Below, piece by piece: positions 2,605-61,472 of a stretch of DNA of 64,000 nucleotides (position 1 is its first letter; every line of letters begins with the position of its first letter). The stretch is from Moniliella sp. 'wahieum'. Taxonomy: Eukaryota > Basidiomycota > Moniliellomycetes > Moniliellales > Moniliellaceae. The stretch spans positions 806,001 through 870,000 of the forward strand of contig RSEE01000015.1 of the NCBI GenBank assembly GCA_003971905.1, given 5' to 3'. The notes beneath the pieces are model-generated. The model was not told the origin of the DNA. It was given only the letters and a program-made list of their open reading frames with translations, and did no database searches. A program made the position numbers and the translations under genes.

Positions 2605-3309
2605 TGTTTGGGGCGGATACTGTATATATGGAGCTACTGGAGGATGGCATGAACGTGGTTGTGCAGACGGGGTATCGATTAGATCACAGGACAGCTCTCA
2701 ACTCAAACCACTCTGTTTGTTGCGAGCCGGGGTGATCCCACGCACTCCCCATGTCTCCTAGCGTCGGTTCTGTCTACATCATCATGACCGGATTGGCTCT
2801 CTCCGAGCAACCCATGTGTTGTGTCTAAACGGGGCATGTTCCCGTTTAAGTAGGACATGGATCAAGTTCCAGTTGTATGCCCGAGTAAATTGTGGCCGGT
2901 GAGTCGCTTTGTTGGTGCCCATGCTTCTATCTTGCTTCGACTTATGTCTACTTGAACCTTTTACACACCAATAAAGGGATCGAAGCTCTAGTGTGTCCCT
3001 TCAATCTGCGCGTCCTGTTCTCGCTCCAATAAGTCGATCTCTTTTCTCTTCATCGTTCCCTTTGTTCCTGGCTGACGGCAGAGAGCTCACCGCTCACCTT
3101 TCATATGGTTTTTCCTGCTCCAAGACTCTTATCTCCTGCCTGCTAAGTGGGAGAGGTTCCCCCCCCTAGTCTTTCTCTCTTGCAACAGTAAATAATGTTT
3201 TGGGCATGGTTGTTGGTGTTTAGTACGTTTAGTAGACCTAACCTCAAATTGTAGCCCGCACAGAACGAAAGCAAAAGTAAAATATCAAGCCGAGGAGCAG
3301 AAAAGAATT
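2605..3309. other. Gene-free interval downstream of the FYVE gene
   Basis: I see no conserved coding sequence here. An AATAAA at 2970-2975, about 365 bases after the FYVE stop, could serve as a polyadenylation signal for that gene. The TTTT of the tRNA-Ser transcript (read on the minus strand) is at 3301-3304. Confidence 0.4.
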
Positions 3310-3416
3310 CGACACCTGTGAGATTCGAACTCACGCCCTCAGAGAGGATTCGCTGGCCCTTGTAGCAAGGTGCTTCATATAGCAGGCGAACGGGGTAACC
3401 ACTGCCCTAAAGTGTC
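3310..3416 (-). tRNA. tRNA-Ser(GCU) with intron
   Basis: Folding on the minus strand gives a 7-bp acceptor (GACACTT with AGGTGTC), a 3-bp D stem, an anticodon stem TTCGC/GCGAA, loop C-T-GCT-A-A, a long class II variable arm and a 5-bp T stem (GTGAG/CTCAC) around TTCGAAT. The GCT anticodon, long variable arm and G discriminator all fit serine. A 25-nt intron follows position 37, the usual place, giving a mature length of 82 nt before CCA. A TTTT RNA polymerase III terminator lies at 3301-3304. Confidence 0.88.
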
Positions 3417-3841
3417 GCTTTCGGACCGACATGTCTTTTCTAGGAATGGCTTGCTGATTGATCATCGATCAACCAACTCGAACAATTCACCCATCCATCA
3501 ATCATCTTTGAGTGCAGCAGAGAGGCAAAGAAGAAGGGGGACAAGACGCGACGCTGTCTGGATTCAATATTGAGGCCTGAGGGCACGCTGGTTGAGAAAC
3601 ACTGCACGGCTGCGGGGTGCGTCTGGGATTATCGATCTTATCAACCCTAACCCCCTCGATTATCCCAGATTCCCGGCACTCTTAGCTTGAGAGCCACAGA
3701 TGAGGGCTGAATTTTTGGGAGCATTTTCCCATTCACTCTCTATAATAGATCTATAATGATCGTTTGCCTTACCCTTATGCATTTGCCCTAGGGGTATATC
3801 TGGTTGAATCCGAGTCTACATCACTCTCTATTCCCACGTTA

Positions 3842-3911
3842 TAGGGGCGGCGACAAGTGGTTCCTATTCCAAGTGTTAGGGGCGGCGACAAGTGGTTCCT
3901 ATTCCAAGTGT
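3842..3911. repeat. Tandem duplication, 2 x 35 bp
   Basis: A 35-bp unit beginning TAGGGGCGGCGACAAG is present twice head to tail (3842-3876 and 3877-3911) with no difference that I can see. The surrounding 3417-3994 otherwise holds no gene that I recognise. Confidence 0.85.
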
Positions 3912-3994
3912 TCCAAATGGGATTCTTTCCAGTTCGATCAAATGCATTTTTAGGTATATTTTGGGTCAGTTAGGCTGTCCATTCCGCCATCCTC

Positions 3995-5826: not shown

Positions 5827-5959
5827 CCTAAAAAAAGAAGCATGGTGGTGGAGGTGGAATGAGTGATCAAAACACCGAGCGAGTCCGGTGCGCGCTCAGT
5901 TGCCCGGGGCGCAATACTCAATGTCAGGTTCAAGATCGACCCGGGGAGCCCAGCTGCTC

Positions 5960-5992
5960 GGGTGCCACAGCATGATGCATGATGTGGCACCC
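5960..5992. repeat. Perfect inverted repeat with heptamer-containing loop
   Basis: GGGTGCCACA (5960-5969) and TGTGGCACCC (5983-5992) are exact reverse complements, separated by 13 bases that contain a TGATGCA unit. The arms could form a 10-bp stem. Confidence 0.8.
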
Positions 5993-6154
5993 CGGAAACA
6001 CACAAAGGACGAGTAAATTTTAAATAGCATACTGTGCCCCCTGCGGCCTGAGCGCACACAGAGGCCCCCGAGAGGGGCAGGGGCCGCTCGCGGGAAGAAA
6101 TTCTCGTCGCTCTTCGCTCATCCCACTTGTCGATGACTACGCAACAAGTAACCC

Positions 6155-6168
6155 TAACCGGTAACCGG
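6155..6168 (+). repeat. Heptamer array: TAA+CCGG x2
   Basis: Two head-to-tail TAACCGG units. Same construction rule as the TGA-tetramer arrays elsewhere in the window. Confidence 0.8.
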
Positions 6169-6614
6169 TCCCCGCGGCAACGGGCACCGGGCAACAGTAA
6201 CGTACGGTGTAACCTCAGCGTTAGGGCCCTGACTAAGCGCTCACCCGTGCTGCCTGCAGAATAAGACCCACACTATTACGGCCTGCGGCCTCACCCTCCT
6301 GAGGGGCCCGAGGCTTCTGGTGACTCATGAGGTGCGTGAGCCTGCGTCGATTTGATTGTGCAGCAGCCTCCACAGGCATAGGGGGGCACTATTATCCTAC
6401 CCAGACTCTTCCGTAGCCACAGCCTCCCTCTAACGAACAAGTTGAATACGCGCTGAGAATGTCATAGCGTGCCAGCAGCGGAAAAATAGGACAGACAGTT
6501 CAAGCCCATTTCCATCGGAAAGACACCTGCTCGGGGCTCACCAACCTGAAGAACTCTCCTACAGGCACACCATCACCATCCCCCCAAAACCACTCACCAT
6601 CTGCCAACAACAGC

Positions 6615-9600
6615 ATGCCCGTTCGCCCGAAACCGGAACTTGATCCCGAAAACAGAAACTATTGGTATCCGGCTGTCACCACCGAAGGGAGTGGTGGCAC
6701 CGTACTGTATCGATGTTTGGTGTGCAATAAGTCCACCCTGATACGCCGGGGTTCTTTCCACACCTTCACGAGGTCCGCCGGGCACGCAAGGGCCAAGAGG
6801 CTACTCGCACATCGGATGAGGGAACAGCTTGAAAAGCAAGGGAATTATCAGAATTGATCTCTGGCAGAGATTCCCCCCTACCAAAGAACGGCTCAACAGG
6901 CACATCACCTAACGAGTATCAGGACAATCCTGACGACGACGACGCTCCTGATCGAGACTACGAAGACGGTATCGTGGTCGATGAGGAGGAGGGGGGATTA
7001 TCGCAACTTCATCGAGGTTGCTCTCCTTCGGAGTTCTTCCTTGAGGTCCTTTCAGACGACGAAGCGGAGAGACGCCAGGCGATGAAAGACGTGTGCCAAG
7101 AGAGAGAGCGCAAACGCAGACGTGTCGCCGACTCCTTGTCCAACCAGCAGGATGCTCCCAACCTGGAGGAGATGCCTGCTTTGGAGGACATGCCTCCCCT
7201 TCCGGAAGAGCTGGTTGCTGAACGTGGCATGCCCCCCCTTGTGGAGGGGGACATGATATCTACTACCGTTGACACGCTCAATCAGAACACTGAATCAGAA
7301 GAGGAAGAGACAAGCGAAGACGACGAGATGAGTGTGGATGTGCCCGCCCCCCTTCCTGACTCTGTGGAAAGAGAAGCATTTGCTCTCTGGATGGCGAATA
7401 TGCTGTTTACCCCAGGACACTGCGGCCCCACCAGAGTGACACACTTCCCGAACCTTCGGCTCAGGATGCTGGGAAGGCGCTGGGCCTTAGCCCTGCGCCT
7501 TCACACGACTTTGGTATCTTCGAATCTTTGATGGTGAGTATACTAGCCTTGATTGGTGATGTGGTAAGGGTGCTAACACAGCTGTGAACAAAAAAGGGCT
7601 GGATGCTTACCTTTGCCTGCGTCATGCCCAAGGTACCCCTCCCGAGGGGAATCCGCCATATGATTCATGGCTTGGTGGACATGGCATTTTCGCGTTCCAA
7701 TGGCCCACCCGTGATGTCGTTCAACAAGTTCGAGAGTCTCTTTTCCAAGATCTGCTGGCGCCCCAGCGATATCACCGCCCAACGTGACTCAAGCTCCCAA
7801 TTGCAGTACACCCTTAAGCTTCCTGAGATTGTGACTCTATGGTTTGGAAGCAAAGACCTTCGTGCCCATATGACGGATTACCCCACCGTTGGATCCACGA
7901 TTCAGCACTTGTCCGATGGGTATCGTTTCTATGAAGCCGTTCGGCAGCCATGCGCGCGGCTCCCTAGAGGAGGAATTGCCTGGGAAGGAGAGCCATTGTT
8001 GATATTGGTTCCTCGGGATCCTAGCGAGGCAGGGCCGCATCCCCCCGCTGGTTCATTCCCCGCCGCTTTTTGGGGGGGGAGGAAAAGAAAAGTAATGGGG
8101 GGAAGCCAAGACTCCGAGCTTTTGGAACACCAATCAGTTCAAGCACCCGCCGTGAGCATGAGACCAAGGATATTTACGTCGACCTCGATGTCTGTTCAAA
8201 ACCCAACTATGGAACAGATTGGTTTACGACGCCTGGCAATACCTTTTACGATCGTAACGGTGGACTCATTCAGCCCAATCCTTGGCGCCGGTTGAGCAAA
8301 TACCCCGATTATGATCCTGTCCTATTTTGTCCAATGGTGGCCTGGGTGGATGACGCTCGCATCCATGCGGCCAATAGGCAAAGCGCCGGCATCACCATGC
8401 TCCTTCTTCAAGCAGCTGGTCTAACTCAAGAAATGCTGAATGCACCAAATACGATCACCACCTATTCGGCTCAACAACATTCCGACGAGCCTCGTGCCTT
8501 GGAACCGCTGATTAAAGATTTTGTATGTTCCTGACCCCATGTATGCCATCACAATGGGTGTATGGAATTGTGGACACCAATGTTGTTGAAAACAGAGAAT
8601 TGCGAGAAACAGGGTTGCACATTGTAGACGCAAAGACGGATTCTCTCGTGGTTGTGGTGCCCCAACTGCTATGCATCAACGCTGATAACCCCGCTCATAA
8701 CAAGATGGCAGCAAGAGGCCCTCCTGGCACAAGCACGCACCCTTGCCGCTTCTGTTGCATGAATGTCAGCGAAGTTGGAAGCGTGAGCCACTTCCAACAG
8801 ATCTTTAGCAGGAGTCCATCGCGTTCTGCTTCGGTACTGCGTTCGAATCTCCACCAGGCGGCAATATTCGCACGAGAAGGAGACAATGCCGCCTACGATC
8901 GCTTGACTTGGGAAACGGGTGACCGATGCCCCAATAACCTCACGCGATTTGCTAATGAGTGCATTGCTGATGTTGACGTGGTTGCAGGCACCCGGGAGGG
9001 GTATCCAGCCCACACGATCCGGCGCCCTAACGACAATCAACTGCACGCAACGCGGGAACAGAGGTTATAAGAGAAAACCGACGACTCTGGTTCACCCATT
9101 TGGATTCAGAGAATTTTTTGTATTGCCCACTCTTGCGTCTTGAGGAGTTCGAGTTGAAGTCGTTTTTCCCCTTTGACTATCTCCATGGATTCTTGCTTGG
9201 TCCAGGCAAGGAGTTACTCCGCATGCTTTCGCAACAGTTGCAGCCAAAGGCTAAAGATCAATTGACCTTGTTTCTTTACGCTCTGGACACTTCCGGGCTA
9301 CCCAATGTGGACGGCAAGACACTCCAAGCCAAGCTGTTGATGAAGAACCTGGTAACTTGCCAGGGCAAAGATGTTTCCAAGATGCTCGTTGCAGCACTTA
9401 TGCGGCGATCCCGATGCTGGAACCTCTTGAAGATGTCGGTAAGAGTAAGCAGGATCCTACCTGGAAGGTCGCGTACGAGTTCGTTTTCCCCCGACCCCTT
9501 CACGCCGCCTTTGTATCCGCCGCGAAGGCACAGCAGTTGCTCCGACAAAGGTGGTTCGACCGCGCAGAAATGCCGCACTACCTTGTGAGTCCCCCGCAAC

Positions 9601-11056
9601 TCCTCTTTATCCTTGAAAGAACAAACTAGTTAATTTTTCTCTCCATGCAGGATTCTGTTCAACAAGCTCTCTTTGACCTCGCGGACAAGTTATCGCTGAT
9701 CCCCGGGGAAGAGACACTGTTGGAACGGAAGCACAAGTTCCACATTCTCTTTGCTCATGTGCGGGCCTGCATTCGGTACTATGGCCCAGTTTTTCAATGC
9801 TGATACTGCCCGGTTCGAGTCGCAAATAGGGCCTGCACGTGCGGCTGCAACACGGACAAATGGACATAACCCCAGCCGCGACATTATCCACGTGCTTTGG
9901 CGCAAAGAGGTAATCAAGCACTACTCGGCTCCTGGTTTCACCTTACCTCAATGGCAAGGAAGGTGGAAGGTGCAGTTGCCTTGCCCCCCCGGTGCGGCGA
10001 ATCTGATCGCTCAATGCTTGGCTGATATCAGGGCCAAAAGAACGCCCGGTACGCCCCCCCCTCCGCCAACACACTTTTTGTGATGCAATTGTTGCTAGAG
10101 GCTAACACCCGCATGCATTGCCTGAAAGGATATGTTACCTTCAAAGGCTATCGACCTCAACCAAATCTTGCTTTGAATCGGTACTTTCTCTTCCCTCGCC
10201 TGACCCAACACGAAGTGGGCCCGTTTCCCGCAGGTGATCAGAAAAAGGTCGCTCACTTGCCCCATTTCACCCAAGCCAAGAATGTGGCCGCCCAAACCGG
10301 GAAGTGGTAAGTGAAGGTCACCGGGTAACCATTCGCATGGAAGGTCCCGACCAGCCATCCGGGAATCAAGCTCCGTTTACGATTGGTGAGGTTCAATCCA
10401 TTGGCGTTGTAACTGACAAGGTGCGCGTTACCCTGGATTCGGTCTGGATTGTCTATAAGCCAATGCTTGTAACTGGGCGTGTTCAGCCTGAATCCGATTG
10501 CCGCATCGTGGAAGAGTTGCCCCGTCATGCTGAACGATTCGCCTTGGCCAGTGTACGTTTACCATCCCTATATCCACGTGCTTATTGTATTGTGTTGCAA
10601 CACTCATGGCTGATCATTTTGGACCCGGATAAAGCGGATTGGCAACCTTGTAGGGCTACAGCACTGCTGCTCGAGCAAGTGCAAGATTGATCCAAACGGC
10701 CATTCCGAGGCGATTCATGATATTGGCGCAGGGGGACGCAGGAGGCGATCACAATCACCACGCCTTCTATTCGGCACGTTGCGCATCTGAAGCATGTCCT
10801 GGTGGAGTACGCATTGAAAACCCCTCCAAAGGGCCACAGCAACCTCAATTTGCGCCTGGGACAACCGAGCACAGAGCAGCGCGATGCCGAAACATTGGCG
10901 CAAGTGATTGCTCAACGCCGCCGGGCTGCTGTAGGTGATGCCCCCTCAGCATACCGCCGGAGGGCGCGAAGCGGCGTAGGCCCATTGCGCGGACCAGTCG
11001 CCCGTCCCACGCATCTGGTTTGGACCCTACCTACTGTTGAGGACGAACGGAAGTGA
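6615..11056 (+). mobile_element. Tnp2-like (CACTA-related) DNA transposon gene, frame-broken
   Basis: Successive open segments in changing frames share the look of large fungal Tnp2-type transposases. The first has a Cys/His zinc-finger-like start (CLVCNKS...H...H, 6615-6857), followed by an acidic Asp/Glu/Ser region (6854-7530). The middle carries GPPGTSTHPCRFCCM (about 8720-8765), resembling the HPCxxC motif before the catalytic core. Later come FPFDYLHGFLLGPGKELL (about 9160-9220) and NPSRDIIHVLW (about 9870-9900). Introns 7534-7581 and 9585-9650 have good splice ends. Frame breaks sit at a C4 run near 7430, a G8 run near 8072 and a T5 run near 9790. I found no terminal inverted repeats, so the element limits are unknown and the coordinates are the coding span. 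The family call is from motifs seen by eye and is tentative. Confidence 0.55.
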
Positions 11057-11165
11057 GGGAGGGATGGTTGTTCTATTCCAAGAAGAAGCTTCTCAACACA
11101 GGAAGGATACAGAGGGGAGAGTCGGACAGGAAGGAATGATTACGACATGCTGGCATGCTGGCGTA
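11035..11165. repeat. Diverged LTR relic related to the 156-bp LTRs
   Basis: Starts TGTTGAGGAC and, with gaps, follows the 54646-54801 LTR: ACGGAA, GAGGGATG, CTATTCCAAG, then GAGAGTCGGA and a terminal GATGGCG-like end. About 25 bases are missing near the start. No target duplication is evident. It overlaps the last codons of the transposase-like gene. Confidence 0.4.
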
Positions 11166-11435
11166 TTATTTGTAATCACGCCAACACCTACGAACAAGAT
11201 GAAGAGTTTGAATAGAATGATGCGCATCAACGGCGAAGCAAGCATATGAACCACACCAGCGACGAAGACAAAATGTATAGAAGGTATATAGTTGAGCACT
11301 AATGTCAGTGGCGTTTTTGATATACTATAGTAGCTCGCATGCAACCTATAATAATATAGTGTTGGAGGAGATGTCTGCCTTGTTCGCCTTCTGCCTTGTT
11401 GGTATGTGCTTTCGCAGCTTGTCGGGATATTTGCA

Positions 11436-12034
11436 AACGGAGAACCAATGGTGAAGGACGAGGATGGCGGGAGACAGAGGAGACAGCGTACCGACTACCA
11501 CGTGATGGGGCCCGGAGCACTGGGAGGATCAGGAATGGAAGTCGACCACACGCTGCGCGACACGGGATCGCTGGAGGCGCAGAGCGCGTTCCGGAGGGTG
11601 GTGCATGCGAGCACCGCTACCCCCTTGGAACGCCGGGAGAAGGAACTGCTTCGGATGCTTGAACAAGCAGAATGCGACAAGAACGCCAAGTACCAGGGAC
11701 GCACTCAAGAGACGTTTTTCCCCCTGGTTTTGACGACGCGAGGATACTACGGCACCAAGACGGCGGGCAAGTTGTTTGCGCATTGGAAGGAGTTGGCTAC
11801 TAAGTCTCAGTGGACATGGTTCCTCGCTCGGATGTCAACCACATTCATCCGTGTCCACACGCGCTACCTAGGGTACGGGACCGGATGGCGCGAGCCGGAG
11901 GGTCCTGATATCCTGGGCGATCCCCCTGGTTCCTTGACCCTGGTGGTGCCCCCAAGTAACCCCCGCAAGATGAACGGTTAGGATTAGACGTAGCGTTCCC
12001 CCTGTCCCAGCCTTAAGCTCTGCCAATGACATGG
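11436..12034 (+). mobile_element. LINE copy A: 5'-truncated, endonuclease tail only
   Basis: An open frame of the last ~180 residues (stop at 11981) matches the C terminus encoded on the minus strand at 34421-36010, with scattered changes. It carries KNAKYQGRTQETFFPLVLTT, resembling the core of the restriction-like endonuclease of R2/CRE-type non-LTR retrotransposons. The shared 3' untranslated part runs past CCCAGCCTTAAG to about 12034. Homology to the longer copy begins near 11436, so the 5' end is truncated, as expected from incomplete target-primed reverse transcription. Unlike copy B it keeps a C5 run near 11620 that holds the frame open. Confidence 0.75.
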
Positions 12035-12700
12035 AATCAGCCACGGGAAAGAGATGAATGCTACGGCGCCGATCACAGGAAAACAATAAGCAAAGTTTAT
12101 ATGCCCCATAGCAAACAATGTGCTTTATCCCCAAGACGCAGAATATGGAAATTTCACATACACAGTCCGCAGCCGTGTGCAAGCAGTTCCGCTTACATGT
12201 TACAAGGAACTGGGCCGATAGAGAACCAACATGCCAATAAGTGTTTGGTGTCGTCACTTCGCCCCATGCGCACTCTTAACAACAGCAGCTCTGTTGTGTT
12301 ATGCTCAAAATGAAGAGAAAAAGCGCATCACATATGGGGCCACAACTGACGACGAAGGGGATAGAGAGTATGTGTCTGTCTTTCGTATACGCCGAAAGAC
12401 CTTCCCATATGCGTGTGTTGGAACGCATATATGTGGTACACATGGCCCCACACACGAGGTCACTATACACGCTTATAATAAGAAGGGTGTTTCTTCAAAT
12501 GGCAACATTGGTGTGGTGGTCTCTCGGGTCTCAGATCTCACATAGCGTTGTCTTAGGCACGCCGCTGGCCTTCTCAGATCTCAGTCCACTCAGATAATGT
12601 CACATGTCAAGTTTCAGGCCCTCAGACCTCCGGCGCATTGCTCAACGACATTCCACCGTTCGCACCGGTCCGGTCACCGAAGAAGAAAGACCGCCGCGGA

Positions 12701-12721
12701 TCATCGATCACCGATCATGCA
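12701..12721 (-). repeat. Mixed heptamer array, TCA orientation
   Basis: Three consecutive 7-bp units, each TCA plus a tetramer: TCGA, CCGA, TGCA. TCA marks the minus-strand orientation of the TGA rule. Different tetramers share one register. Confidence 0.75.
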
Positions 12722-12844
12722 CTATGCATCAGGAACTCATCAACAAACTATACTCGCGCAAGTCGCCCCAGGATACCTGATCGAGAACGAAAGGCTCGTC
12801 GGTACATTTTATAGGTACCTCGATCTCTGTCGCTTGTCGCATTG

Positions 12845-13024
12845 TGTTGGGACGGGCGGTCCCCTACATAAGCCATCAAGGCGCCTTATTACTCAGGCTT
12901 GTTTGCACCCTGTCTCCTGTAGGTGGGCATAAGGCTTAGACCCAACCACCACCACCGCGATTGCTTGCTCTGCTATATTTCCAGAGGTTCAGCGCCCAAC
13001 CCTTGGGCTGTTCCGGTCTTACCA
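12845..13024 (+). repeat. Diverged solo LTR of the copia-1 family
   Basis: Begins TGTTGGGAC and ends GGTCTTACCA. In between it follows the 217-bp LTRs at 18003 and 23340 (AAGGCGCC, ACTCAGGCTTGT, AAGGCTTAGACC, ACCACCACC, CCAGAGGTTC, CTTGGG), but it is 180 bp long with internal loss. It is flanked by CATTG and CATGG, a near-perfect 5-bp target duplication. This is a solo LTR left by recombination of an older insertion. Confidence 0.8.
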
Positions 13025-13207
13025 CATGGTGCACCAAATGGCTCAGTACTGAGGCTCAGTCCACAAGACCTCTGTGCGGACCAAGCAGTGATGCGAAGTT
13101 CCGCGCGGATTTGAACGGGGTAATGACTCATGCATGAGTCCTACGCCTGGGTGAGCCTGAAGGCCTGAGGCTCAGGCCTGAGGAGGGCCTGATGAGCCTG
13201 AGGCTTG

Positions 13208-13228
13208 TAACCGGTAACCGGTAACCGG
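13208..13228 (+). repeat. Heptamer array: TAA+CCGG x3
   Basis: Three head-to-tail TAACCGG units, directly after a stretch of interleaved CCTGAGG-type units (about 13150-13205). Confidence 0.85.
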
Positions 13229-13472
13229 CGGTAATGTAATAAGTACCAAGTGCCAATCGCCCCCAATTAAGCGCTGTGAGACGCGTGACATATGACATGC
13301 GAGCGCGCGAGAACTGTCCAAAGGTACAGGATGTATCAGACTAACATAGGATGGATGGTGCAGACCGTTGGGTAGTACGAGGTACGACGCACTAGAGTTC
13401 GTAGAGTTACTAGCTACTAGTTAGTAGAGGTTGAAAACAATACATCCAGACCAATTAAAAAGTGTTACACTG

Positions 13473-13493
13473 TGACGCGTGACGCGTGAGATG
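13473..13493 (+). repeat. Heptamer array: TGA+CGCG x2, then TGAGATG
   Basis: Two TGACGCG units followed in register by TGAGATG. Confidence 0.8.
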
Positions 13494-13563
13494 GAGATCT
13501 GGCAAAAAAGAAGAATTGGAATATGCGGAGAAAGTGAGACTGTGTGGTCCGCGGGGGCCACGG

Positions 13564-13605
13564 TGACCGGTGACCGATGACTAGTGACGCGTGACGAGTG
13601 ACACG
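13564..13605 (+). repeat. Mixed heptamer array of six TGA+N4 units
   Basis: Six consecutive 7-bp units, each TGA plus four bases: CCGG, CCGA, CTAG, CGCG, CGAG, CACG. Three tetramers are self-complementary and three are one or two bases away from one. The 7-bp period and TGA are constant while the tetramer changes. Confidence 0.85.
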
Positions 13606-13655
13606 CGTCTCGGACGAACGGAAGCTTGACAGCTTGACAGTTTGACAGGTGCGAG

Positions 13656-13676
13656 TCACCGGTGACATGTGAGCGC
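13656..13676. repeat. Mixed heptamer array with strand switch
   Basis: Units in register: TCA+CCGG, then TGA+CATG, then TGA+GCGC. Orientation changes from TCA to TGA after the first unit. Confidence 0.75.
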
Positions 13677-14122
13677 GAGCGCTCTGCGCTGGTGCATGAT
13701 GAGACTGGCCGCTGACCAATGGCATGTGAATGCGACGGAGAGGCTTTTGCAGCATGAAAGTGGTGGAAGTGTGATGGGGGTAGCAATGTAGTCCCATCAT
13801 GCAATTATTCTCGATGGGGGGCTGGCCTGGGTTTGCCTTCGGATTGGTTCAGACAGCTGCTGTACTCTTCTCTCAGCACCATAGATCTCATTCCTAGGGT
13901 CTGGCTGTTGTTCCCCCGTTACAGGCTTGCATCAGGTCTTCTCTCCTCTGATGGATATAGCGAACAATCAACAAGGGAAGAAGGAAAGCATACTATATCC
14001 TCCTGATAGTTGTGAGTACAACCATCATGTGCGCATGTACACAATATTCCGGAAGATGACCTTTGCCAGGCGTTCCAATTCGAGGTGGATGACCGCGGTG
14101 GACAGATATATTCTCTTTGGTC

Positions 14123-14143
14123 TGAGATCTGAGATCTGATGCT
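14123..14143 (+). repeat. Heptamer array: TGA+GATC x2, then TGATGCT
   Basis: Two TGAGATC units followed in register by TGATGCT. Confidence 0.8.
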
Positions 14144-14536
14144 CAATATTCAATGCACAACGCATGTAAGGGTTCCGAGGCTCTGGAGAGAGTGCCTGAA
14201 CTTGACACGCGCGCGTGTGTGTATATTCTGGGGTCGGTCAAAGATCGGCGAGCACTCATTAAATTATGCGTTAATCATCACTAGCAGGATCGTCGAAATC
14301 ATTGATCAGGGATGGGGAGCACTTGGATCCTTGGTATTGGGGGAGGGGGGGGGCACAGGGCGACGAATATTCAACAGCGCTTAGGCCTTGGGTCATACGC
14401 GCCAAGCTCTGCCAAGGCGCTGAGGGTCTATCAAGCGATGACGGTGACGAGGGGACTAGCACACAAAGATGTGGCTAGTTGTATAGTGCGCGGGACCAGG
14501 ACCACCTGCCCTCGGTGGGATGTTGTAGTCGATGAT

Positions 14537-14557
14537 TGATGCATGATGTATGATGAG
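14537..14557 (+). repeat. Heptamer array: TGA+TGCA, TGTA, TGAG
   Basis: Three 7-bp units starting TGATG in register; only the first tetramer is a perfect palindrome. Confidence 0.7.
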
Positions 14558-14647
14558 GCGTGTTGAGACGTTGACGCCTGAGGCATGTGGATGGTGGGGA
14601 AACGGCTTCCTTTGGACGCGAGTGCTTTAGACCTCAGGTTACCGGGG

Positions 14648-14675
14648 TGAGGCCTCAGGCCTCAGGCCTCAGGGC
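14648..14675. repeat. Heptamer array of GGCC type with strand switch
   Basis: One TGAGGCC unit followed in register by TCAGGCC twice, then TCAGGGC. More CCTGAGG-like units follow to about 14690. Confidence 0.8.
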
Positions 14676-15268
14676 CTGAGGGCATGAGGCGAGGCAGGTC
14701 ACGGGGACCTTGTCGATCATCGATCATTCACTTGAAGAGGATCATAGTTTTGGTAAGTTGGCGGACTGAGTAAGACAATCCAACTCTCGTGGCCACACGG
14801 GATAGAGGGCTAGCCAGCTGTGACAGGGGAGATTTGCGAGGTGAAGTGACCAGAAATACTTCTGTAGTGCCTGAGCGGGGCCAACACATATTTGACTCCC
14901 GTCACTTTGACCCAGACCTCTTGAGTGGCTCTATATTGGATGGTACCTATTGGAAGTGTTATGATGTACCTGAGCTGGACATGATTGCTCGGGTACTATA
15001 GTACGCCGCGGTTATACGCGTTTTACAGTTCCATGTTGACGCGCAGGCTGGTTACTGGTTGTAATGGGAACATCCTGGGGTACGAGGGGCAGGAAGCCAG
15101 GGTTGTGTCTGGAGAGGCTGGAGAGCAACTGGGGGGTTCTCTACGATCCCCCAGTACCCCGGCCTCCCCGCGTCCGCAGTCAAGCGCTGATGTTCTCGGT
15201 CGATGACAGTCGCGGCCCCCGTGGGGCGCATTTGTGTGTCACATGTCACACACACCTGTGCCCGCAGG

Positions 15269-15296
15269 TCACCGGTGACCGGTGACCGGTGACATG
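15269..15296. repeat. Heptamer array: TCA+CCGG, TGA+CCGG x2, TGA+CATG
   Basis: Four 7-bp units in register with one orientation switch. It lies about 275 bp upstream of the hexose transporter start codon. Confidence 0.85.
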
Positions 15297-18002: not shown

Positions 18003-18219
18003 TGTTGGGACCCGTGGTCCCGTACTTAGGCCAAGGCGCCTCATCACCCTTCACCCCTGATTTGTCCTCCGAAGCCTCCACGTGTATACTCAGGCTTGTC
18101 TGAACCCCTGTCTCTAGGTGTGGCACAAGGCTTAGACCTTAACCACCACCATCGCGATTGCATTGCTCTACATTTCCAGAGGTTCTTCACCCAATCCCTT
18201 GGGTTCCTCCGGTCTTACA
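18003..18219 (+). repeat. Copia-1 5' LTR
   Basis: 217-bp LTR, TGTTGGGACC to GGTCTTACA, preceded by target copy CTACT. It matches the 3' LTR base for base as far as I can read. Confidence 0.95.
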
Positions 18220-18325
18220 GAGTTACAATCCTCTTGACGCTCAGCCCTGAGCCTTCCACTCTTACACTCTTCGGTCCTCCGCTGCCGGCCCTATCCACAA
18301 GCGCTTGCTCGAACTGCGTAAGCTA

Positions 18326-21300
18326 ATGGCAAGCATCATGAGCTCTCAGACTCAGGAGTCTTGGTTCAACTCCTCAACCCCTACTTCACCAACTGCCGGA
18401 GCAGAAGAGAGCACCACTCCCGTCGGAGTTGACCACGCCTCCCCGCCGCTGACACCATCGCGTGAATCTACCCCTACACCTCAACCCACCCCCGTGGGCC
18501 CCGACAACACCGCGAACGACGTCGCCACCCTCGCCGACCGCATTCGCAACATGTTCAAATTGTTTCCCGAACACATCACCCTCAAACAGCTACAGGACAC
18601 TGGTATCAAGCTTGGGTACAGCGAAAAGACGACCACAGAAGCCATTGTCATGTTATCATGTGAGAATCCACCCAATGCTAGCAAGAACGAAGGTGCCTTA
18701 TCGTCAACTCCGGCCGTCGACGACAACCCGTGGGCTTTGACTCCCGACAAGCTCCTCCGTAGTGCCACTCGCAGCAACGTGCCGTACCACGAGCGTTTCC
18801 ACAACAACAGCTCGTTTTGGTTATGGACCCGGATCTTCCTCCCTCGTATCCAGATTATCCCTGGAGCGCGTGAGCATCTGGAACAGGGCAAGGCCCTGGA
18901 CGGGTATAACGCAGAACTGGACGCTCACTTGGCCAACATTCTACTCCCGTGGATAGACTCCGACGTCGTCCAGCAGATCACCGGCGATGGCACGCCGGCT
19001 CTAGGGTCTGCATACTATCATGCTCTGCGTGATTTGTACGGCACCGTTTCAGACACTGAGATCTGTGATATCCTCATAAAGGTTCTCACTCTCAAAATGG
19101 GCACCAAGTCGGGCCGCCAATACCTGAATGAGTTCACTGTGGCGGTAACCCAGTACGAGATGACGTCCAAGTCCAAGCTGGACGAGATTGGTCTAGCACA
19201 GATGCTACGGAAAGGCGTTACTGATCAGGGGTGGTTGCACCTCCATCGTAACAGCAGCTACGCCGAATTGCGCCGAGCAGTGAGCGAACTCAAAGGCTCC
19301 AACTACGGCAGTACCTCCAGTTCAAGCCCAGCTCCCTCCAGTACGGCCCCTTCGGAAGCCACGTCGCACAGCCAAACAAGCAGTACGGTGACAGGCCGCG
19401 GACGAGGCCGAGGTGGCAGCGGGTACAGAGGAAGTCACCGTGGTGGCCAACGTGGCGGCCACTTTAGCCGGCCGGCTACGACAGCCCAGACCACCTCATC
19501 TGCCCATGCAGTAACCCCTATGGCAGCCACTACACCACCCAAGCCAGCCAACCTCCCTGCGCAACACGATTCAGGTGCGAGACCATCCGTATTCAATGAA
19601 CGAAGTGCGTTTATCAATCTTCGTCCACACCGCGAGCCCATAGCAGTGGCAAACGGACAGATCGCATACACTGAAGGCATTGGCACCATCTCTATGTACA
19701 TTCAAACCCAGAACGGAGCCCCTATCCGCATCCACCTACCCGGCAGCTTGTACTGCCCCACCTTCCCGACCAACCTGCTCAGCGCTTACCATCTATCTAT
19801 CGCAGGCATTGGCAGCTGGATCCCTCCAGGTGGCCATGGTCTCTATCTCGGACGACACGGCGAACCTTTTCGTCTCGCCGCCGACTCAAGCTATTCCCTT
19901 ACTCTGGCGCCCAATACGACAGCCACAGCCAACAGCGCCACTTCGCTACTCAACCTTGATGCAACCCTGGTCAAGGTGAAAAACGCCCACATCCGATGGA
20001 ATCATGCACCTCTAGATCAACTTTCATCCCTCACGTCGGATGACCCAGCATTCGAACGGGTCAACAGTGGCGACATCGCTTTAGTCCGGTCCTCGTGGCA
20101 CTGTGCACCATGCGCATTAAGCAGAGCCACTGCCCCACCCCACGCCACGACTGGACGCCCAATCCGAACCATTCGCCCTTTCTCTCTCCTCCACCTCGAC
20201 GTCCTTGACATATCCCGCCAAGGCGGCGGGGTCATACTTACGCCCTTATCATTGTCGACGACTTTACGCGGTATACCTGGACGCTACCCCTGGTGTCCAA
20301 GGGTGATGCCACAGCCGAACTTCAAGCCTTCATCCGGCGCGAGCATCGCCAACATCCCGACCGCCCCCTTCAGACGGTCCGCTCTGACAATGCGCCTGAA
20401 CTCACCACCGCAATGGACGAGTTTTACTGCGAGCTGGGAGTAGTGAGCGAGCGCACCAATCCTGGCGAAAGTGCGTCCAATGGGGTCGCCGAACGCGCCA
20501 TAAGATCGATTACGGATCGCGCTCGACTCATGGTAATCGCCAACAGATTGACTCCCGACGAGTGGTGGGAACACAGCTTGTTGGCGGCCACATATGCACA
20601 CAACCAGTCGCCGCCGAAAGCACTGGGTGGGGACAGCCGATTTGTCCGGTACCATGGCTTCAAACCCTCCCTTCGCATGCGCGGTTTTGGCACTCTTGCC
20701 TACCTGCACCTATTGCCCAACCAACGCGAGGGCGGCAAACTTGGTCCGCGGGCCGTCCCAGCAATGTTGGTGGGTTACGGGCACGGCCGCGGTTCGAAGG
20801 GGTGGCTCTTTGCCATCCACCAGGACGACGGCCAAGTTGGATTCCGTTGGAAAAAGCCGTCCACCTGGACGCATGTCCCGTACACCACCGAATATCCCAC
20901 GCACTTTCATCTGGACCCCCTTGTCCCTGCTGGTGGCGGAGAGGTGCGGGGGGGCGGAGAAATGGGTGCTGGTGGTCAGACAGCTCCCCACCCCGGCGTG
21001 TGCGTTTTGCGATAGATGAACTGACCCGCGATACTAATGGTAAGAAAGACAATGCCCCCCATGGAAAAAGAAATTAAAAGAACGAAAAACAGAGGCACAT
21101 CGCCCGGCTCAAGCCAACGAAAATGAGAATTCAGAGCCTGGCCCCACTCCCACCAACTCCAACCCCCCACATGTATCCCCCCAACCTGTTGCATCTGACC
21201 CCGCAGGCATGGCACAACGCCAGGCAAAGCAAGCCGAAGAAAATGAAACTATCACAGAAGATGCCGTTGACACTGGCCACCAAGTCCTGCTTTCCCCTCC

Positions 21301-23274
21301 CTCTTCCACTTCCCCTTCCTCTCCCGCCCTATCCCCCTCCCCTCTCTCCCCCCCGACACGCTCGCCCCCGTGACCGTGCCCCTGACCGATACAGCCGTCC
21401 CCGCACTCGTGCGTCGCAATCCCGTTCGCCAAGCGCGTATCAACGCTCCACCCCTCGACCTGTCCATTCCAGCCAACGACAATTTGCGCGATGGCACCTT
21501 TTCCCTGCTCGTCAACAAGGCCCCTAGCATCTTTGGCAACCCGGCCGCCCTCTCCGCCCTAGGAATGCAGGCTTTGGTGAGTATTTTCGGACCAGCGCCG
21601 GACACATCCATGCTACCTGCTTCGGAGCCAAGCTCGCCCCCCATTGCACTCGCAATCGAATCCGCGGCAAGTGACACCGAGGTCATACTGACCACCGATG
21701 GGGTCCCGGTGGCCCCCAAGAACATCAAGAAGTTGGTGGGTCACCCTGCCTTTGATGGCGTACTCGAGGCAATGCGCCTCGAGCTTCGGCGTTTTGACGA
21801 GCGTGACGTGAAGGAAGTTGTACCCATCCCCCCAGGGATCAAACCCCTTCCCGGCATGTGGGTCATAGGTACTAAGACGGATGCGGATGCTAACTTCCTC
21901 AAGTACCGTGCCCGCTACGTTGTGGGAGGGCACCGGCAAGTTCCTGGCACATGGGCGAAATCTTTTGCTCCTGCCGTTCGTACTGCTGCCGTCAACACGC
22001 TAATTGCGTTGGCCGAAGCTGATGGCCTCCACTTATTTTCTGCCGATGTGGAAGCTGCCTACCTCTATGCCGATATCAACGAGCTCGTCTATGTTCGACC
22101 ACCCCCCTTCTTCCCAGAAGCGCCCGGTCATTGCTGGAGACTCAAGAAAAGTCTCTATGGCCTGCACCAGAGCGGGGCCAACTTTGGAGATTGGCTCCGC
22201 ACTTTCCTTTGCGACCGACTCCACTTCACTAGCCTAAAATCAGAGCCTTGCCTGTTCATACGTCGCACCGAACCTCTTGGCCTGATCCTAATCGCCGTCC
22301 ACACTGACGACTTTTTGGTCGCGTGTCGGTCCCAAGAAGCGTATGATGAATTCTTAGTGGAATTAAGGCGCAGCATCCAAATTAAGTCCAACGGCCCCCT
22401 ACGTTTCCATCTCGGCTGCCAATACGACCGTATCGATGGACGACTGTACATCAGCCAACCCAAATTCATCGCTGAGACGCTTGCCGCGCATGACATATCA
22501 CCTCACCGGCCCCGCTACCTTCCAATCGGCCACCAACTTCCGCCTCCCAAGCGACCCGAACACGAAAAGCGTGCCACTCGAGACGAGCACCGTGCCTACC
22601 GTTCTATTGTCGGATCCAGCTTGTGGGCGGCTCGTATGTCCCGGCCTGATGCCCTCTTTGCGGCTACCTTTTTAGCGCGGTTTATGGACGACCCGTCCGC
22701 CGCCCACCGACGCGCAGCGGAGGACCTATTACGTTTCTTCGCCGGTACGTCTGACTACTCTTTGTGCCTCACACCCAACCGATCTCGCCCTCTACTCGAG
22801 CTGCACACCGATGCCTCCTTTGCATCAGACAAGAGCAACTCTCACTCCGTTTCGGGCCATGTTGTTTTTGTTTTCGGTGTGCCTGTATCCTGGGGCTCCA
22901 AGTCCCAAAATCAAGGTGTGAGCAACACAGCAGCATCTGAATACCTAGCCATGGGAGATGGCCTTCGAGATGCTCTATTCATTCGCAACATACTGTTTGA
23001 ACTTGGTGTCTGCAAGGCTAATCACCCGATTGAGCTCTTTGTTGACAACACCGCTGCCAAAGCGTTGGCCGAAAAGCTCGGCAGCCTAGGCAAAATACGG
23101 GAGATTGACGTCTCGTACCACGAGGTGCGGGAACGCATCCACCGAGGCGAAATTAAAGTCCACTACACTCCAGGTGCACACCATCTCCCTGACTGGTTCA
23201 CCAAACCTCTTTCTCTTCCCAAGATCATTTCTGCGCGTAACAATTTCGATTTGGCTTCTCTTTCTTCGCGCTGA
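18326..23274 (+). CDS. Copia-1 gag-pol polyprotein, frame-broken
   Basis: From ATG 18326 the gag part is open and ends in a Gly/Arg-rich RGG-type stretch (RGRGRGGSGYRGSHRGG, about 19400-19470) where a CCHC zinc knuckle is usual. A protease motif DSGAR follows (about 19570). Integrase zinc ligands (CAPCALS) lie near 20105, then a one-base loss in the G4 run at 20228-20231; integrase continues in the next frame with IVDDFTRYTW and the GESASNGVAERAIRSI region. Between about 21005 and 21370 the frame changes several times through a Pro/Ser-rich linker. Reverse transcriptase and RNase H (21370-23274) are open, with catalytic AVHTDDFLVA, LHTDASFASDK, SEYLAMGDG and FVDNTAAKAL. As written it cannot yield one polyprotein. 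Confidence 0.85.
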
Positions 23275-23339
23275 TCCCCTTTCTACTTTTCTTTTGTTGA
23301 TGGCCAACGGGCTTCTTTCGTTCCCTTGGCCCGGGGGGG

Positions 23340-23556
23340 TGTTGGGACCCGTGGTCCCGTACTTAGGCCAAGGCGCCTCATCACCCTTCACCCCTGATTT
23401 GTCCTCCGAAGCCTCCACGTGTATACTCAGGCTTGTCTGAACCCCTGTCTCTAGGTGTGGCACAAGGCTTAGACCTTAACCACCACCATCGCGATTGCAT
23501 TGCTCTACATTTCCAGAGGTTCTTCACCCAATCCCTTGGGTTCCTCCGGTCTTACA
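23340..23556 (+). repeat. Copia-1 3' LTR
   Basis: 217-bp LTR followed by target copy CTACT (23557-23561). The insertion point abuts TAACTAG-type heptamers (23564-23577). Confidence 0.95.
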
Positions 23557-23777
23557 CTACTAGTAACTAGTAACACAGCTACGACTCCTTCTTTGACTTT
23601 TGCGAAGCTACGCAAAAACCCTGTAAAATCACCATGGTGAGTTGGGTTTCAGACACATTTTTTCGGGCGAGGCACATAGTGAAACCAATCGTCATACGGA
23701 GATGCAGAAGAAGCAATGCCGCTCAAACAAGGATTAATGGTGTGGATGCAGCTCAGCATACATCATGTGTGTATTGT

Positions 23778-28574: not shown

Positions 28575-28752
28575 AGACGTTGCTTGAGACTTTTGTGGCT
28601 TATATACCACTTTGCCTTCACGCCTTGTCTGAAGGTACGCCTCTGCTTCCTTTCTTGACCTGTTGCTCCTCACAAGCAGACGTTGCTTGAAAAGACTTGC
28701 GGCTCACCCACTTTGCCTTCAAGCTTCAAGCTTCACGCCTTATCTGAAGGCT
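28575..28752. repeat. Imperfect direct repeat, about 65-75 bp, two copies
   Basis: A block containing AGACGTTGCTTGA, ACTTTGCCTTCA and CACGCCTT(G/A)TCTGAAGG occurs at about 28575-28636 and again at 28679-28752. The second copy is expanded by CAAGCTT heptamers. Confidence 0.7.
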
Positions 28753-28918: not shown

Positions 28919-28932
28919 TCATGCATCATGCA
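28919..28932 (-). repeat. Heptamer array: TCA+TGCA x2
   Basis: Two TCATGCA units in tandem, the minus-strand form of TGA+TGCA. Confidence 0.7.
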
Positions 28933-28989: not shown

Positions 28990-29017
28990 TGAAGCTTGAA
29001 GCTTGAAGCTTGAAGAC
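28990..29017 (+). repeat. Heptamer array: TGA+AGCT x3, then TGAAGAC
   Basis: Three TGAAGCT units followed in register by TGAAGAC; another ATGAAGCTGA follows. Confidence 0.85.
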
Positions 29018-32213: not shown

Positions 32214-32241
32214 TCACTAGTCACTAGTCACTAGTCACTTG
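32214..32241 (-). repeat. Heptamer array: TCA+CTAG x3, then TCACTTG
   Basis: Three TCACTAG units followed in register by TCACTTG, the minus-strand form of TGA+CTAG. Confidence 0.85.
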
Positions 32242-32263: not shown

Positions 32264-32288
32264 TGACCGGTGACCGGTGACCGGTGAC
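32264..32288 (+). repeat. Heptamer array: TGA+CCGG x3
   Basis: Three TGACCGG units plus a partial fourth, 22 bases downstream of a CTAG-type array of opposite orientation. Confidence 0.85.
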
Positions 32289-36010: not shown

Positions 36011-38054
36011 ATTATACGTTGTAAAAAACAACAAAAAAACAAAAGCCACCACGTCCGCGGTTCCCTCCCGTTACTACACAGCACGGGGCGAATGGTTAGT
36101 AGCTTTTGGTGATAGCGTACTTCTAAGACCGCCGCTAGTGAGCCTAGGCATGAGGTATTCGGTGCCCTTCTTGCATCTGCTCTCCTCGGATGTGCAATCA
36201 AGAGATCAAGTGATACCAAGTTCGCGCCCTCCTGCATCATCAACATATTAATTAGCAGGGAAAAGAACCTACTGGTGCGACGAGACTCGTTCGTGTTGGT
36301 AGGGGGATTTGGGAGGCGAAGATGGCATGGGGCAGGGCACGGGCTGTGGAATGGAAACCTGATGCGGAGCAGGAAGAGAAACGCCCATCCCCGTATGAAC
36401 GATGAGAGGCTGCCACATTACCCTACTCCCCATATTACCAGAAAAGGCGATGAATAGTGGAAGATGAGAGGAATGCAAAGGGGTGGTTCCACACTACTGA
36501 TATATTGAGATGAGCAACAGAAACAACGGCGTACTTGTCGAGTGCATTCTGGTTTTGAATGGCCGACGCATTTGATCTACTGTATGGTATGCGCCAAACC
36601 ACTGCTATAACGTAGGGAGTAAAACTGAAGTACAGAATCATGGTAACATCAATCTTCTAAGAGATGCTCCTTCACCTTTCTCCTTGGCCGCATTTTCTCT
36701 GTCGTCACAGCTAGTACCTCTCATTTTTCTCTTCTACTGCACAGGCGCCAAGACCGCATCTTTTACTCTGGGTATACCGCATCTGGGCGGCAGTGTTCGC
36801 TCAACTGCGAGATTTTCCCTCTGAAGACCCAAGAAGACGGCTTGTAGTACTGGTCTTTCATCAGTAGTACCAAATATTCAGGGAAACTATGTACCAATCG
36901 TGAATGATTATGGGTGTCTGGCTCGACATACGAGGCGTGTGAATGCAGTGATGCGATGCCGACTATCAAAGCGCAGATGCTCGCGTTTGAGGCCAAAAGA
37001 TGTGATGAGATCAATTGGATTATGCAGTCTTCTGCACATCAAACCGTTGACATGAGTTGACAAGCCATGCGGACACAATGGTGCGAAAGCGGACTCATTA
37101 CAAGAGGCAAGAGGGAGATCGACGATGGTGGCGCTATATTGCAGAGAGGTCCGGGTCAAGCACGTCTCAGGTGGTCCGCAGCTGTGAATGTGAGGGAAAG
37201 CGGAAAGTGCACAATGCAGTGGCTGGCCAGCAGTGGCCACTAACCCCTCGGCACTGTTCTATGGAGTGTCCGCGACAGTGCATGCTGCATCCCCCTGCTT
37301 CCGACCCAGACAGGCTTCTCCACTGGAATAGACCCATTCTATTCTACCCACATTCTCCGGCCGTCTCTTGCATCGTGCAATTCTGCAGCGTTGGCCGATG
37401 ATCGAATGATCGATGATCGATGATGCCAAGGACAGCCGCAGAGTGCCTACGTAATAAAACGGCTTCCCCAAGCCGCCCACATTGTGCAGGCAGGGAGGGG
37501 CACTGTGTGTGGACATGTGGACTGCGTATAGAGCTGCGCTGAGGCGCTAGGCCTGAGGCGCTGAGGAGTTACTAGTTACTCAGACTCAGTAGTCACTAAG
37601 TACTGATGGCTGATGCATGTGATGCATGCAGACGAGCGCCTGATGGGTGATGCGGATGTTAGGCGGGCGACTTGTGACTTGTGACATGTGACATTGCGAC
37701 GGCGGCATCCAGGCACAGGGCAGCTCTCTGCCTGGATGGGCCGCCCCCACAGGTGTGGTGCGGGAGGTGGGGGCACCGCGTTTGGCTGCTGGGGGGCTCC
37801 CTAGACTGCCTCTGTGCTGTGTGTCCTGGTCGTGCTTCCTCTGGCTCGGGGGCGGCGGGGTAGGCGGGGGCATCAGAGGGCACGCGACGGGGGTGGGCAC
37901 GAGGCGGGTGCAGCCCATGCAGCAGGCAGCACGCAGCACCCAGCGCCTAGCACGCATTATGCAGCGGCGAATGGGCCGGCCAGGCTAGACTCAGTGCTCG
38001 GTACTCAGACGCCCATATTCGGATCCCAGATCTCACATCGCACACGGCTGGGCT
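36011..38054. other. Gene-free interval
   Basis: I recognise no gene. Heptamer units TGA+TCGA lie at 37399-37427, and TGACTTG/TGACATG-type units near 37675-37700. Confidence 0.5.
37399..37427 (+). repeat. Heptamer array: TGA+TCGA x3, then TGATGCC
   Basis: TGATCGA, one extra A, then TGATCGA twice and TGATGCC in register. Confidence 0.8.
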
Positions 38055-45098: not shown

Positions 45099-45916
45099 TC
45101 ACCCCCCCCACCCAGACCTTGAGCCGGGAGAAGGACAAGACTCCCCGCCAACCCGACTCGTTCAAGTGGACAGATTCCGCGACGCTTATACCATTTCAAG
45201 ACGCTTGCCTGCCTGCTGGGGGCATACTGTAGACACCCATTCTCTTGGGTACTATATGGCCAGCTAATGTATCTTTGGGATCTCCTTTCCTTATCCACCC
45301 TCTCAAAACGAACCCCATCGAAAGTTGTGCGCTGCAAGTGCCATACAGGGTGAGGATAGAGGCTCAGGGCGATACCTGATCCTGACTACCTAATAAAAGG
45401 ACTACTCTGTCTGGCGGTCAATGCCAGGAATGACAGAACTAAGGTGCTACTACTAGTACTATAGCCGAGAACACCTCCGGGGACCTAATGGCCAAGGTAC
45501 GTGCACTGTTCGGATCACTGGGTATCCTGATCTGAGAATCACAGAGCCGGAACATCTGGGGAGACCTCATGGCAGCATCGATGAGGCCTGGAGTCCTGAT
45601 GGTCCTCGAGGGTGATGCAATCGCACTGGTGGTGGCGGTGGTCTATAATCCAGCCCGCAACGCCGACAGAGGACCATCAAACAGCCAATCTTCGCCAGGG
45701 GCTATTAGGGTGGGAGAGGAACAAGGAAGCCAGAAGCGAGAAAACAACGGAACTCGTACGCCTGCCAGAGGAGGGACTGAAGGGACTTTTCGGCCGAAAT
45801 GCACATGCTTGTACTATTGTTGAGCCACCCGCGGAAACGGTTTGCCACCTCCACCGGCAATGAATTGCGTCCGGAAAACCTCCGTTCGTGAAGCTAGCGA
45901 AGCTCTTGAAAAGCTT

Positions 45917-60883: not shown

Positions 60884-60888
60884 GGGCG

Positions 60889-61472
60889 ACTATGTCGCTT
60901 GGATGCGTAGACGTGATGATCGCGCTAGCGGTTAGCATCATCTCGGGATCTTTCGTAAAGGATCCACAAGAAAGAGTTTAGCATTTTGATTCCGGAGTTT
61001 ATTCCCAGCGGGCCCTAGGTGCTCTTACCAGCCGGAAACAGAGAGGGCGGTGATGCTGGGAACGTGAAGGGTGGCGGCCGGAGTAAGGTGTTTGCTGGCG
61101 GGGCAGAAAGACTGCCGACTGCCAGCAGCCCAGCATCGCCACTCCCTACAGATCTCAGACCCTTCCAAGGCCATGGACGAGAGGGGGTAGGAATGCCCGA
61201 GAGGCGCAGGCGGCTGCCATCGACATCATCACACGCTCCTTGTTTCAATCAGGCCTCAGGCGCTATCACGTGGGGGTGGGGGAGAGGGACCCGTGGCGCG
61301 TGACGCGTGACGCGTGACGCGTGACGCTGAATAGAACGTTGAACGTTCAAGTTTGATTTTCAAGCCACTTGCGTTCTCTGGCAGCAATTTGCGCTTTGAG
61401 CTTCGAGCGCCCACTACCGCGCCTGGCTGTTCCATCGGCGCCCCCGAACCGGCATCAACCTTCAACCAACCA
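60889..61472. other. Upstream region of the Smr gene
   Basis: No gene recognised. It contains the four-unit TGA+CGCG array (61301-61328) about 145 bases before the proposed start codon, followed by overlapping AACGTT/TTGAACG units (about 61335-61350). Confidence 0.45.
61301..61328 (+). repeat. Heptamer array: TGA+CGCG x3, TGA+CGCT
   Basis: Four 7-bp units in perfect register, 145 bp upstream of the Smr gene's proposed ATG. Confidence 0.88.

Follow-up and report, generated by a model that had tools for sequence, protein, structure and literature searches.

Heptanucleotide arrays of Moniliella sp. 'wahieum' follow a T-N-A rule and contain an inverted copy of their own flank

CNG trinucleotide repeats have a unit made of a palindrome plus one unpaired base, and their strands can fold back. 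Cyanobacterial STRR repeats are heptanucleotide tandem repeats. Transposons of the hAT and Transib/RAG types leave hairpin-end footprints with short inverted additions; transposon footprints are heterogeneous, with 0-3 added bases and small deletions. Quasi-palindrome mutations draw on imperfect inverted repeats of any sequence. Here we analyze period-7 tandem arrays in 64,000 nucleotides from the basidiomycete Moniliella sp. 'wahieum' (contig RSEE01000015.1, positions 806,001 to 870,000; G000:C15:806001-870000). This whole stretch, hereafter the window, belongs to an assembly of 69.5 Mb in 223 contigs. Literature searches by keyword and sequence string, covering mainly open-access work, gave no description of such repeats. 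Among the systems that were retrieved, the TAACTGA repeats of Beggiatoaceae are reported to be heptanucleotide, intergenic and present in many copies (PMC4679880). Hairpin opening in V(D)J joining yields inverted additions that average two bases (range 1-3, two dominant; PMC3528771), and template switching between short inverted repeats has been described for yeast (PMC8604942).

A first-pass annotation of the window had reported gene-free DNA strewn with tandem seven-base units, each consisting of TGA or TAA followed by a self-complementary tetramer. Such tandem pairs are present, on either strand, at 14 of the 16 coordinates it listed, while at 15290 (TGACATGGCC) and 13670 (TGAGCGCGAG) no second TGA follows at +7. 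At least ten of the 16 palindromic tetramers had been placed under this frame; we found 11 among the 44 tandem loci of TRA plus palindrome in the window. For unbiased counting we combined the window with 20 stretches of 10 kb (positions 300001-310000 on contigs C1 to C20, chosen unselected), giving a set of 264 kb to which the following counts refer unless stated otherwise. In this set 15 of the 16 palindromic tetramers occur, the sole missing one being TATA. The null model consisted of 30 dinucleotide shuffles of the same set. Every XYZ-N4-XYZ was counted, the nominal share of palindromic N4 being 6.25%.

The tetramer was palindromic in 139 of 299 cases of TGA-N4-TGA (46.5%; TCA represents the same cases on the other strand) and in 30 of 65 cases of TAA-N4-TAA, compared to 1.5-11.8% for all remaining triplets. 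Overall, 169 of the 364 occurrences of TNA-N4-TNA with equal N had a palindromic tetramer, whereas shuffled DNA averaged 9.7 and never exceeded 20. The excess is limited to TNA and to a spacing of 7 plus its double; no excess was detected in the ANT, CNG and GNC frames. What stays constant is T-N-A, where N can be any base; TGA/TCA and TAA/TTA are its two strand-pairs, and both strands are used about equally. Scaling from non-palindromic hexamers gave the same picture: palindromic A-N4-T hexamers were found 70 times with TG..GA flanks (7.1 expected), 69 times with TC..CA flanks (7.3 expected) and 22 times with TA..AA flanks (1.6 expected). Perfect palindromes were raised only about threefold (TC..GA, 16 vs 5.1; TG..CA, 11 vs 3.4). 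The first-pass annotation had also suggested hairpin-prone DNA. Hairpin-proneness alone fails as an explanation, because the CNG- and GNC-centred versions would pair better and yet show no excess.

Genome-wide counts agree with those of the 264-kb set. TNATGCATNATG had 3855 + 3814 = 7,669 matches, compared to 14 + 22 = 36 for the backward-read control. Its non-palindromic twin had 125 + 159 = 284 matches, which exceeds its own backward control (39 + 25 = 64). TGACCGGTGACCGGTGACC had 130 + 120 matches, compared to 1 + 1 for the control. The window contains 41 period-7 tandem repeats of at least two exact units, 26 of them with a unit composed of a palindromic A-N4-T and one further base; the corresponding numbers for the 20 stretches are 79 and 27. 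Extrapolation from the 132 separate loci in 264 kb would give ~35,000 loci in the assembly, a figure in which both copies of duplicated regions are counted and a few chance matches are included. The first-pass annotation had named two outcomes that would refute it, non-palindromic tetramers being equally frequent and a lack of excess over shuffled sequence; neither was seen. Thus, the earlier observation is real, and stronger than first stated.

The rule can be formulated more sharply than TGA plus palindrome. At isolated sites, defined as having two TNA only (n = 93), the half-palindrome was repeated in the outer flank in 77 cases (left only 35, right only 30, both 12). Since this repeat is mostly one-sided (65 of 93, with neither side in 16), the elementary product has 12 bases. 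It reads TNAab·b'a'·TNAab, or the mirror of this on the other strand, and arises from the five-base word TNAab; b'a' is the reverse complement of ab. The inverted stretch can be counted as two bases, or as three with the T of TNA included. As originally stated, the period-7 grammar of TGA units was correct, but it represents a special case of the T-N-A rule with this elementary unit.

A scan for k-base words that recur directly after an inverted copy of their final p bases (k = 4-9, p = 1-4) made period 7 stand out. The form with k = 5 and p = 2 was found 291 times (controls 107, 155 and 120), TNANN words accounting for 199 of these. Its nested reading, k = 4 and p = 3, was found 194 times (controls 32, 55 and 104), and k = 6 with p = 1 was found 381 times (control 301). 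Among the 298 occurrences of TNAab-NN-TNAab, 199 have a middle pair that is the reverse complement of ab, 5 have one that is so related to the TNA side alone, and the rest show neither. The centre base is copied faithfully: with a palindromic N4 the two TNA copies had equal N in 169 cases and unequal N in 41, compared to 195 and 228 for other N4. Clean one-sided 12-mers (n = 63) had no strong flank preference within 20 bases on each side (largest chi-square 9.7 over 40 positions). AT-only ab were under-used among 139 counted (AA 1 vs 6.9, AT 1 vs 7.1, TA 0 vs 6.3, TT 5 vs 7.7, with expectations derived from 8,376 other TNA words outside open reading frames (ORFs) of 450 nt), as a pairing step would predict.

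Sites 20-300 bp apart shared their tetramer in 5 of 65 pairs, compared to 5.8 by shuffling. Neighbours thus do not share tetramers, indicating that each site takes its template from its own flank; on the same counts we rejected the idea that sites spread from a neighbouring array. Two nearby pairs of same-tetramer arrays in inverted orientation were seen, at window 28714-29018 (arms of 27 bp) and at 3058-3405 of stretch L022 (arms of 22 bp), but despite these the overall sharing between neighbouring arrays was not above chance.

The arrays resemble STRR and TAACTGA repeats in their period of 7 and their many copies. However, those repeats keep one sequence, whereas here the tetramer varies by locus and is set by the local flank. 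Like CNG repeats, they combine a palindrome with one unpaired base per unit, but the unit has seven bases, a T and an A surround the odd base, and there were many independent births.

As a negative control, we used 118 prokaryote loci (0.89 Mb) carrying a TGACCGG array, fetched via a 19-mer of the array that had at least 118 matches. With the arrays masked, palindromic N4 made up 46 of 579 cases (7.9%) and the 12-base form was not enriched (15; controls 23, 38 and 29). Thus, the TNA grammar does not hold for DNA in general. Viral contigs contained no match to (TGACCGG)3. Note that SG8_41, a betaproteobacterial metagenome assembly, supplied 7 of the best 80 of the at least 118 prokaryote matches (L043, L045, L052, L095, L098, L100 and L111).

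About half of the window is duplicated on contig C26; the aligned blocks (33.5 kb with 1,002 mismatches) are 89.6-95.3% identical. The C26 copy is a putative second haplotype, in what would be an assembly of two haplotypes. When a second copy of stretch L022 was sought, the first 2.8 kb of this stretch matched two contigs, mainly at 76-77%, with short matches elsewhere; a close second copy is thus not present for every region. The sites in the window are as follows.

3571..3582, + strand: single unit TGAGG-CC-TGAGG; the C26 copy has one TGAGG
6155..6169, + strand: TAA-CCGG-TAA unit
12531-12540 and 12574-12583, - strand: two TGA-GATC-TGA units (TCA on the + strand)
13208..13224, + strand: TAA-CCGG array; the C26 copy is 21 bp longer (three degenerate units)
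13473..13489, + strand: TGA-CGCG array, identical in the C26 copy
13564..13601, + strand: period-7 TGA lattice with tetramers CCGG, CCGA, CTAG, CGCG and CGAG; the C26 copy is 7 bp shorter
14123..14139, + strand: TGA-GATC array, identical in the C26 copy
14655..14671, - strand: TGA-GGCC array (TCA on the + strand); the C26 copy lacks 14 bp
15276..15292, + strand: TGA-CCGG array; the C26 copy differs by substitutions only
23564..23573, + strand: TAA-CTAG unit adjoining a Copia insertion
28717..28735, - strand: CTTCA-AG-CTTCA-AG-CTTCA (site 28719); the C26 copy has one CTTCA, a 14-bp difference
28990..29013, + strand: TGA-AGCT array
32214..32237, - strand: TGA-CTAG array (TCA on the + strand)
32264..32287, + strand: TGA-CCGG array; the C26 copy lacks 14 bp
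37407..37423, + strand: TGA-TCGA array
45675..45679, - strand: single CATCA, TGATG on the - strand (site 45677); the C26 copy has TGATG-CA-TGATG-CA-TGATG, and three repeat relatives have a single TNATG
61249..61260, + strand: TCAGG-CC-TCAGG; the C26 copy has one TCAGG, and the seven gained bases are one base off the adjoining 7-mer
61301..61324, + strand: TGA-CGCG array; the C26 copy is shorter by 25 bp

Merging the sites present in either or both copies gave 49, of which 26 differ in length (7 of them by merely one to four bases), 7 differ by substitution only and 16 are identical. Ten insertions or deletions at sites measure exactly 7, 14 or 21 bp, a change by whole units as in microsatellites. 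Units of seven were further gained and lost, so that tandem arrays arose and the two copies came to differ greatly.

In five gains, at 3571, 28719, 42545, 45677 and 61249, the middle dinucleotide is reverse-complementary to its neighbour and did not pre-exist there. At 61249, for example, AATCAGG-CC-TCAGG stands against AATCAGG. The longer form at 45677 lies in the other copy, not in the window, and the gains at 42545 and 3571 each have one extra base. The second unit deviates from the existing 7-mer, sharing 5 of 7 bases at 28719 and 45677 and 6 of 7 at 61249. In two cases, comparison with repeat relatives polarises the change as insertion into a single five-mer. The long terminal repeat (LTR) copy L037 contains TCATT-AA-TCATT, whereas five other LTR copies from four loci contain a single TNATT (window 18003 and 23340, belonging to one element; L038; L036; and L030/L031, one locus). 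At site 45677 a single TNATG is found in the window and in L019, L038 and L011 (72-74% identity), and three are found in L039. TNAab repeatedly became TNAab·b'a'·TNAab, with a seven-base insert made from the site itself. A copying mechanism, one of the possibilities raised by the first-pass annotation, is supported by these data: the palindrome is built from its own flank, it occurs in one copy of the region and is missing from the other, and two cases are polarised as insertions.

Three further features are noted. At window 46591-46605, CGTGACGCGTGACGC faces TGTCACGC in the C26 copy, the centre base being G vs C, as if the odd palindrome had been flipped. At G000:C26:568940-569128, overlapping matches to L022:3500-3538 lie mostly 21 bp (three heptamers) apart, indicating a tandem array there. 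Large stretches at window 3607-12178, 54327-60935, 26477-28433 and 32712-34002 are absent from the C26 copy or replaced there, and by eye they show no clear target duplications.

Could the sites be ordinary heptanucleotide microsatellites, grown by slippage from chance seeds? Once two units are present, gains and losses of 7, 14 and 21 bp fit slippage, and the four 7-bp gains at 45889, 45911, 46475 and 46591 are exact duplications. Slippage is likely as the expansion step after the first unit. As a full account we consider it very unlikely, for it leaves the palindromic N4, the one-sided 12-bp form and the gains without a pre-existing middle dinucleotide unexplained, and non-palindromic exact period-7 repeats (n = 67) show no clear TNA preference (26 vs 20.1 expected). 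The same numbers led us to reject a target-site duplication of 7 bp, nnTNAnn, that lacks inverted bases.

We favor a reading in which the arrays stem from a recent sequence-directed micro-insertion that probably continues in this genome today, with a break or fold-back followed by repeat expansion. This reading is tentative, with a probability of roughly 45%. A host enzyme would recognize the two-fold symmetric T-N-A and open the DNA there. One end would turn back as a hairpin or fold-back, two bases being copied inverted in the manner of P nucleotides, and joining of the turned-back end to another copy of the five-mer would follow. The new direct repeat would then gain or lose units by ordinary slippage, the palindromic tetramer being a scar of the reaction rather than a signal. 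Bases that are arbitrary yet self-complementary imply that nucleic-acid strands paired or were copied back, and the strict T-N-A together with the fixed distances suggests that a protein set the geometry; the combination of both favors an enzyme opening DNA at T-N-A. We rate at about even odds the specific claim that an enzyme of this organism recognizing T-N-A catalyzes self-templated seven-base insertions, has done so tens of thousands of times and does so still today.

The nearest precedent is hairpin opening in V(D)J joining. There, as here, a short inverted copy of the last bases of an end, mostly two, lies between the joined ends (PMC3528771). The TNA product is stricter than V(D)J P nucleotides and hairpin-end footprints, with one fixed length, the addition on the ab side and hardly ever on the TNA side alone, and a five-base duplication.

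Several observations weigh against a sequence-directed micro-insertion. No enzyme was identified, in a search limited to six transposase families. One insert length dominates, unlike in V(D)J hairpin opening (1-3 bases, two dominant; PMC3528771). At k = 5 there was no enrichment for p = 1 (474 vs 585), for p = 3 (17 vs 11, 16 and 14) or likewise for p = 4, and the plain five-base tandem was not enriched at a spacer of 2 (TNA 126, ANT 119). The two-sided class comprises one case, and the silent CNG and GNC centres are not explained by plain pairing. Among the gains, the four exact 7-bp copies named above may equally well be plain duplications, and that at 61249 is one base short of one. A seven-base gain of the same shape at 29492 (GGATC-GA-GGATC) lacks TNA. 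For four of the five clean gains, a deletion in the other copy is possible instead, no third copy having been compared. In the case of L037, the net difference is six bases rather than seven, and the centre base is C, vs G or T in the relatives.

The same product form, target duplication plus P nucleotides plus target duplication (k = 5, p = 2; the 199 TNANN cases), would be expected from excision footprints of a hairpin-leaving cut-and-paste transposon of hAT or Transib/RAG style that makes a five-base target duplication TNANN and adds two P nucleotides. T-N-A is two-fold symmetric, like a transposase target. However, an inverted-repeat scan of the 264 kb gave no convincing element of this kind. 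Among 63 inverted-repeat pairs with a 5-bp duplication, one had TNANN or NNTNA, compared to ~3 (5.2%) expected by word frequency, and the arms of this candidate had two mismatches in 12. Duplications of 7-10 bp gave 8 unconvincing pairs, several of them the arrays themselves; those of 4 and 6 bp were taken as totals only, 216 and 34. Many top matches among the best 80 of 215 long inverted repeats were likewise the arrays, and no element was recognized. Inserts of more than 12 bp between the two copies of the region included none with a TNANN duplication, as judged by eye. Searches for hAT, Plavaka, KDZ, DDE_Tnp_4, MULE and DDE_1 gave no matches genome-wide, with working controls for DDE_Tnp_4 and MULE only. 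Within these six transposase families and the inverted-repeat scan, no such transposon or recombinase was found. The product is, moreover, very uniform: additions on the TNA side only are rare (5 of 298), and the heterogeneity of transposon footprints is not seen, only p = 2 being enriched at k = 5. We regard a transposon origin as unlikely.

Template switching by DNA polymerase would also account for the product. The nascent strand would turn back after ab, copy Aab reversed (b'a'T), return to the template at T and repeat NAab. This yields the exact product, in which the inserted b'a'T is the reverse complement of Aab, and fits the reading with k = 4 and p = 3. It would also account for multi-unit gains in one step and for the mild excess of the perfect palindromes TCA-N4-TGA and TGA-N4-TCA, and the under-use of AT-only ab agrees with guidance by base pairing. 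Local inverted copying that creates palindromes is shared with quasi-palindrome and template-switch mutations. However, quasi-palindrome mutations are reported to use imperfect inverted repeats of any sequence (PMC8604942), whereas here both the TNA word and the geometry are fixed. Template switching needs no particular T or A, yet ANT, CNG and GNC are silent and TNA is required. A loopless turn would be poorly held by pairing at two or three bases, and no range of spacings or arm lengths was found. Although possible, this route is doubtful.

The distribution of the sites relative to genes bears on whether selection maintains them as DNA-binding sites or as signals with another function. ORFs of 600 nt or more cover 51.5% of bases but hold 21 of the 169 palindromic sites. 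Long ORFs are thus avoided. Such avoidance would fit functional signals. However, non-palindromic TNA-N4-TNA, which contain the same stop words (TGA, TAA), also avoid long ORFs, if more weakly (52 of 195), and frame-shifting inserts would be purged from ORFs anyway. Binding sites, including the protein half-sites proposed by the first-pass annotation, are at odds with a nearly free tetramer, the lack of a strong flank preference, unmatched neighbours and length differences between copies at 26 of 49 sites. We consider selection for such signals extremely unlikely.

The window also contains a Copia-type element at 18003-23556; its two terminal repeats, of 217 bp each, are identical, its 5-bp duplication is CTACT, and the C26 copy lacks the element. 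Genome-wide, Copia RVT_2 had at least 150 matches, every one of those scored among 204 candidates; many are equal in score and length, which suggests a recent burst. Ten ORFs were searched: three are Copia pieces, one has a sugar transporter match (Pfam) and six are without a match, two of these having no PDB match either. A short intron seems to interrupt the sugar-transporter gene at 15.6 kb, which together with the Copia elements gives the window a fungal look. Ordinary tandem repeats with units of 15, 30 and 35 bp, unrelated to the TNA rule, are found at window 5586-5674, 38176-38258 and 3842-3912, respectively.

How tandem repeats are born is an open question, since slippage needs a seed. 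The TNA sites offer copies from before and after the event, a single strict rule and replicates in the thousands, and the rule predicts future products from the target word. If an enzyme indeed stands behind this rule, it would represent a new site-directed DNA-insertion activity and a new class of mutator, and the reaction would provide a birth mechanism for tandem repeats that requires no pre-existing repeat.

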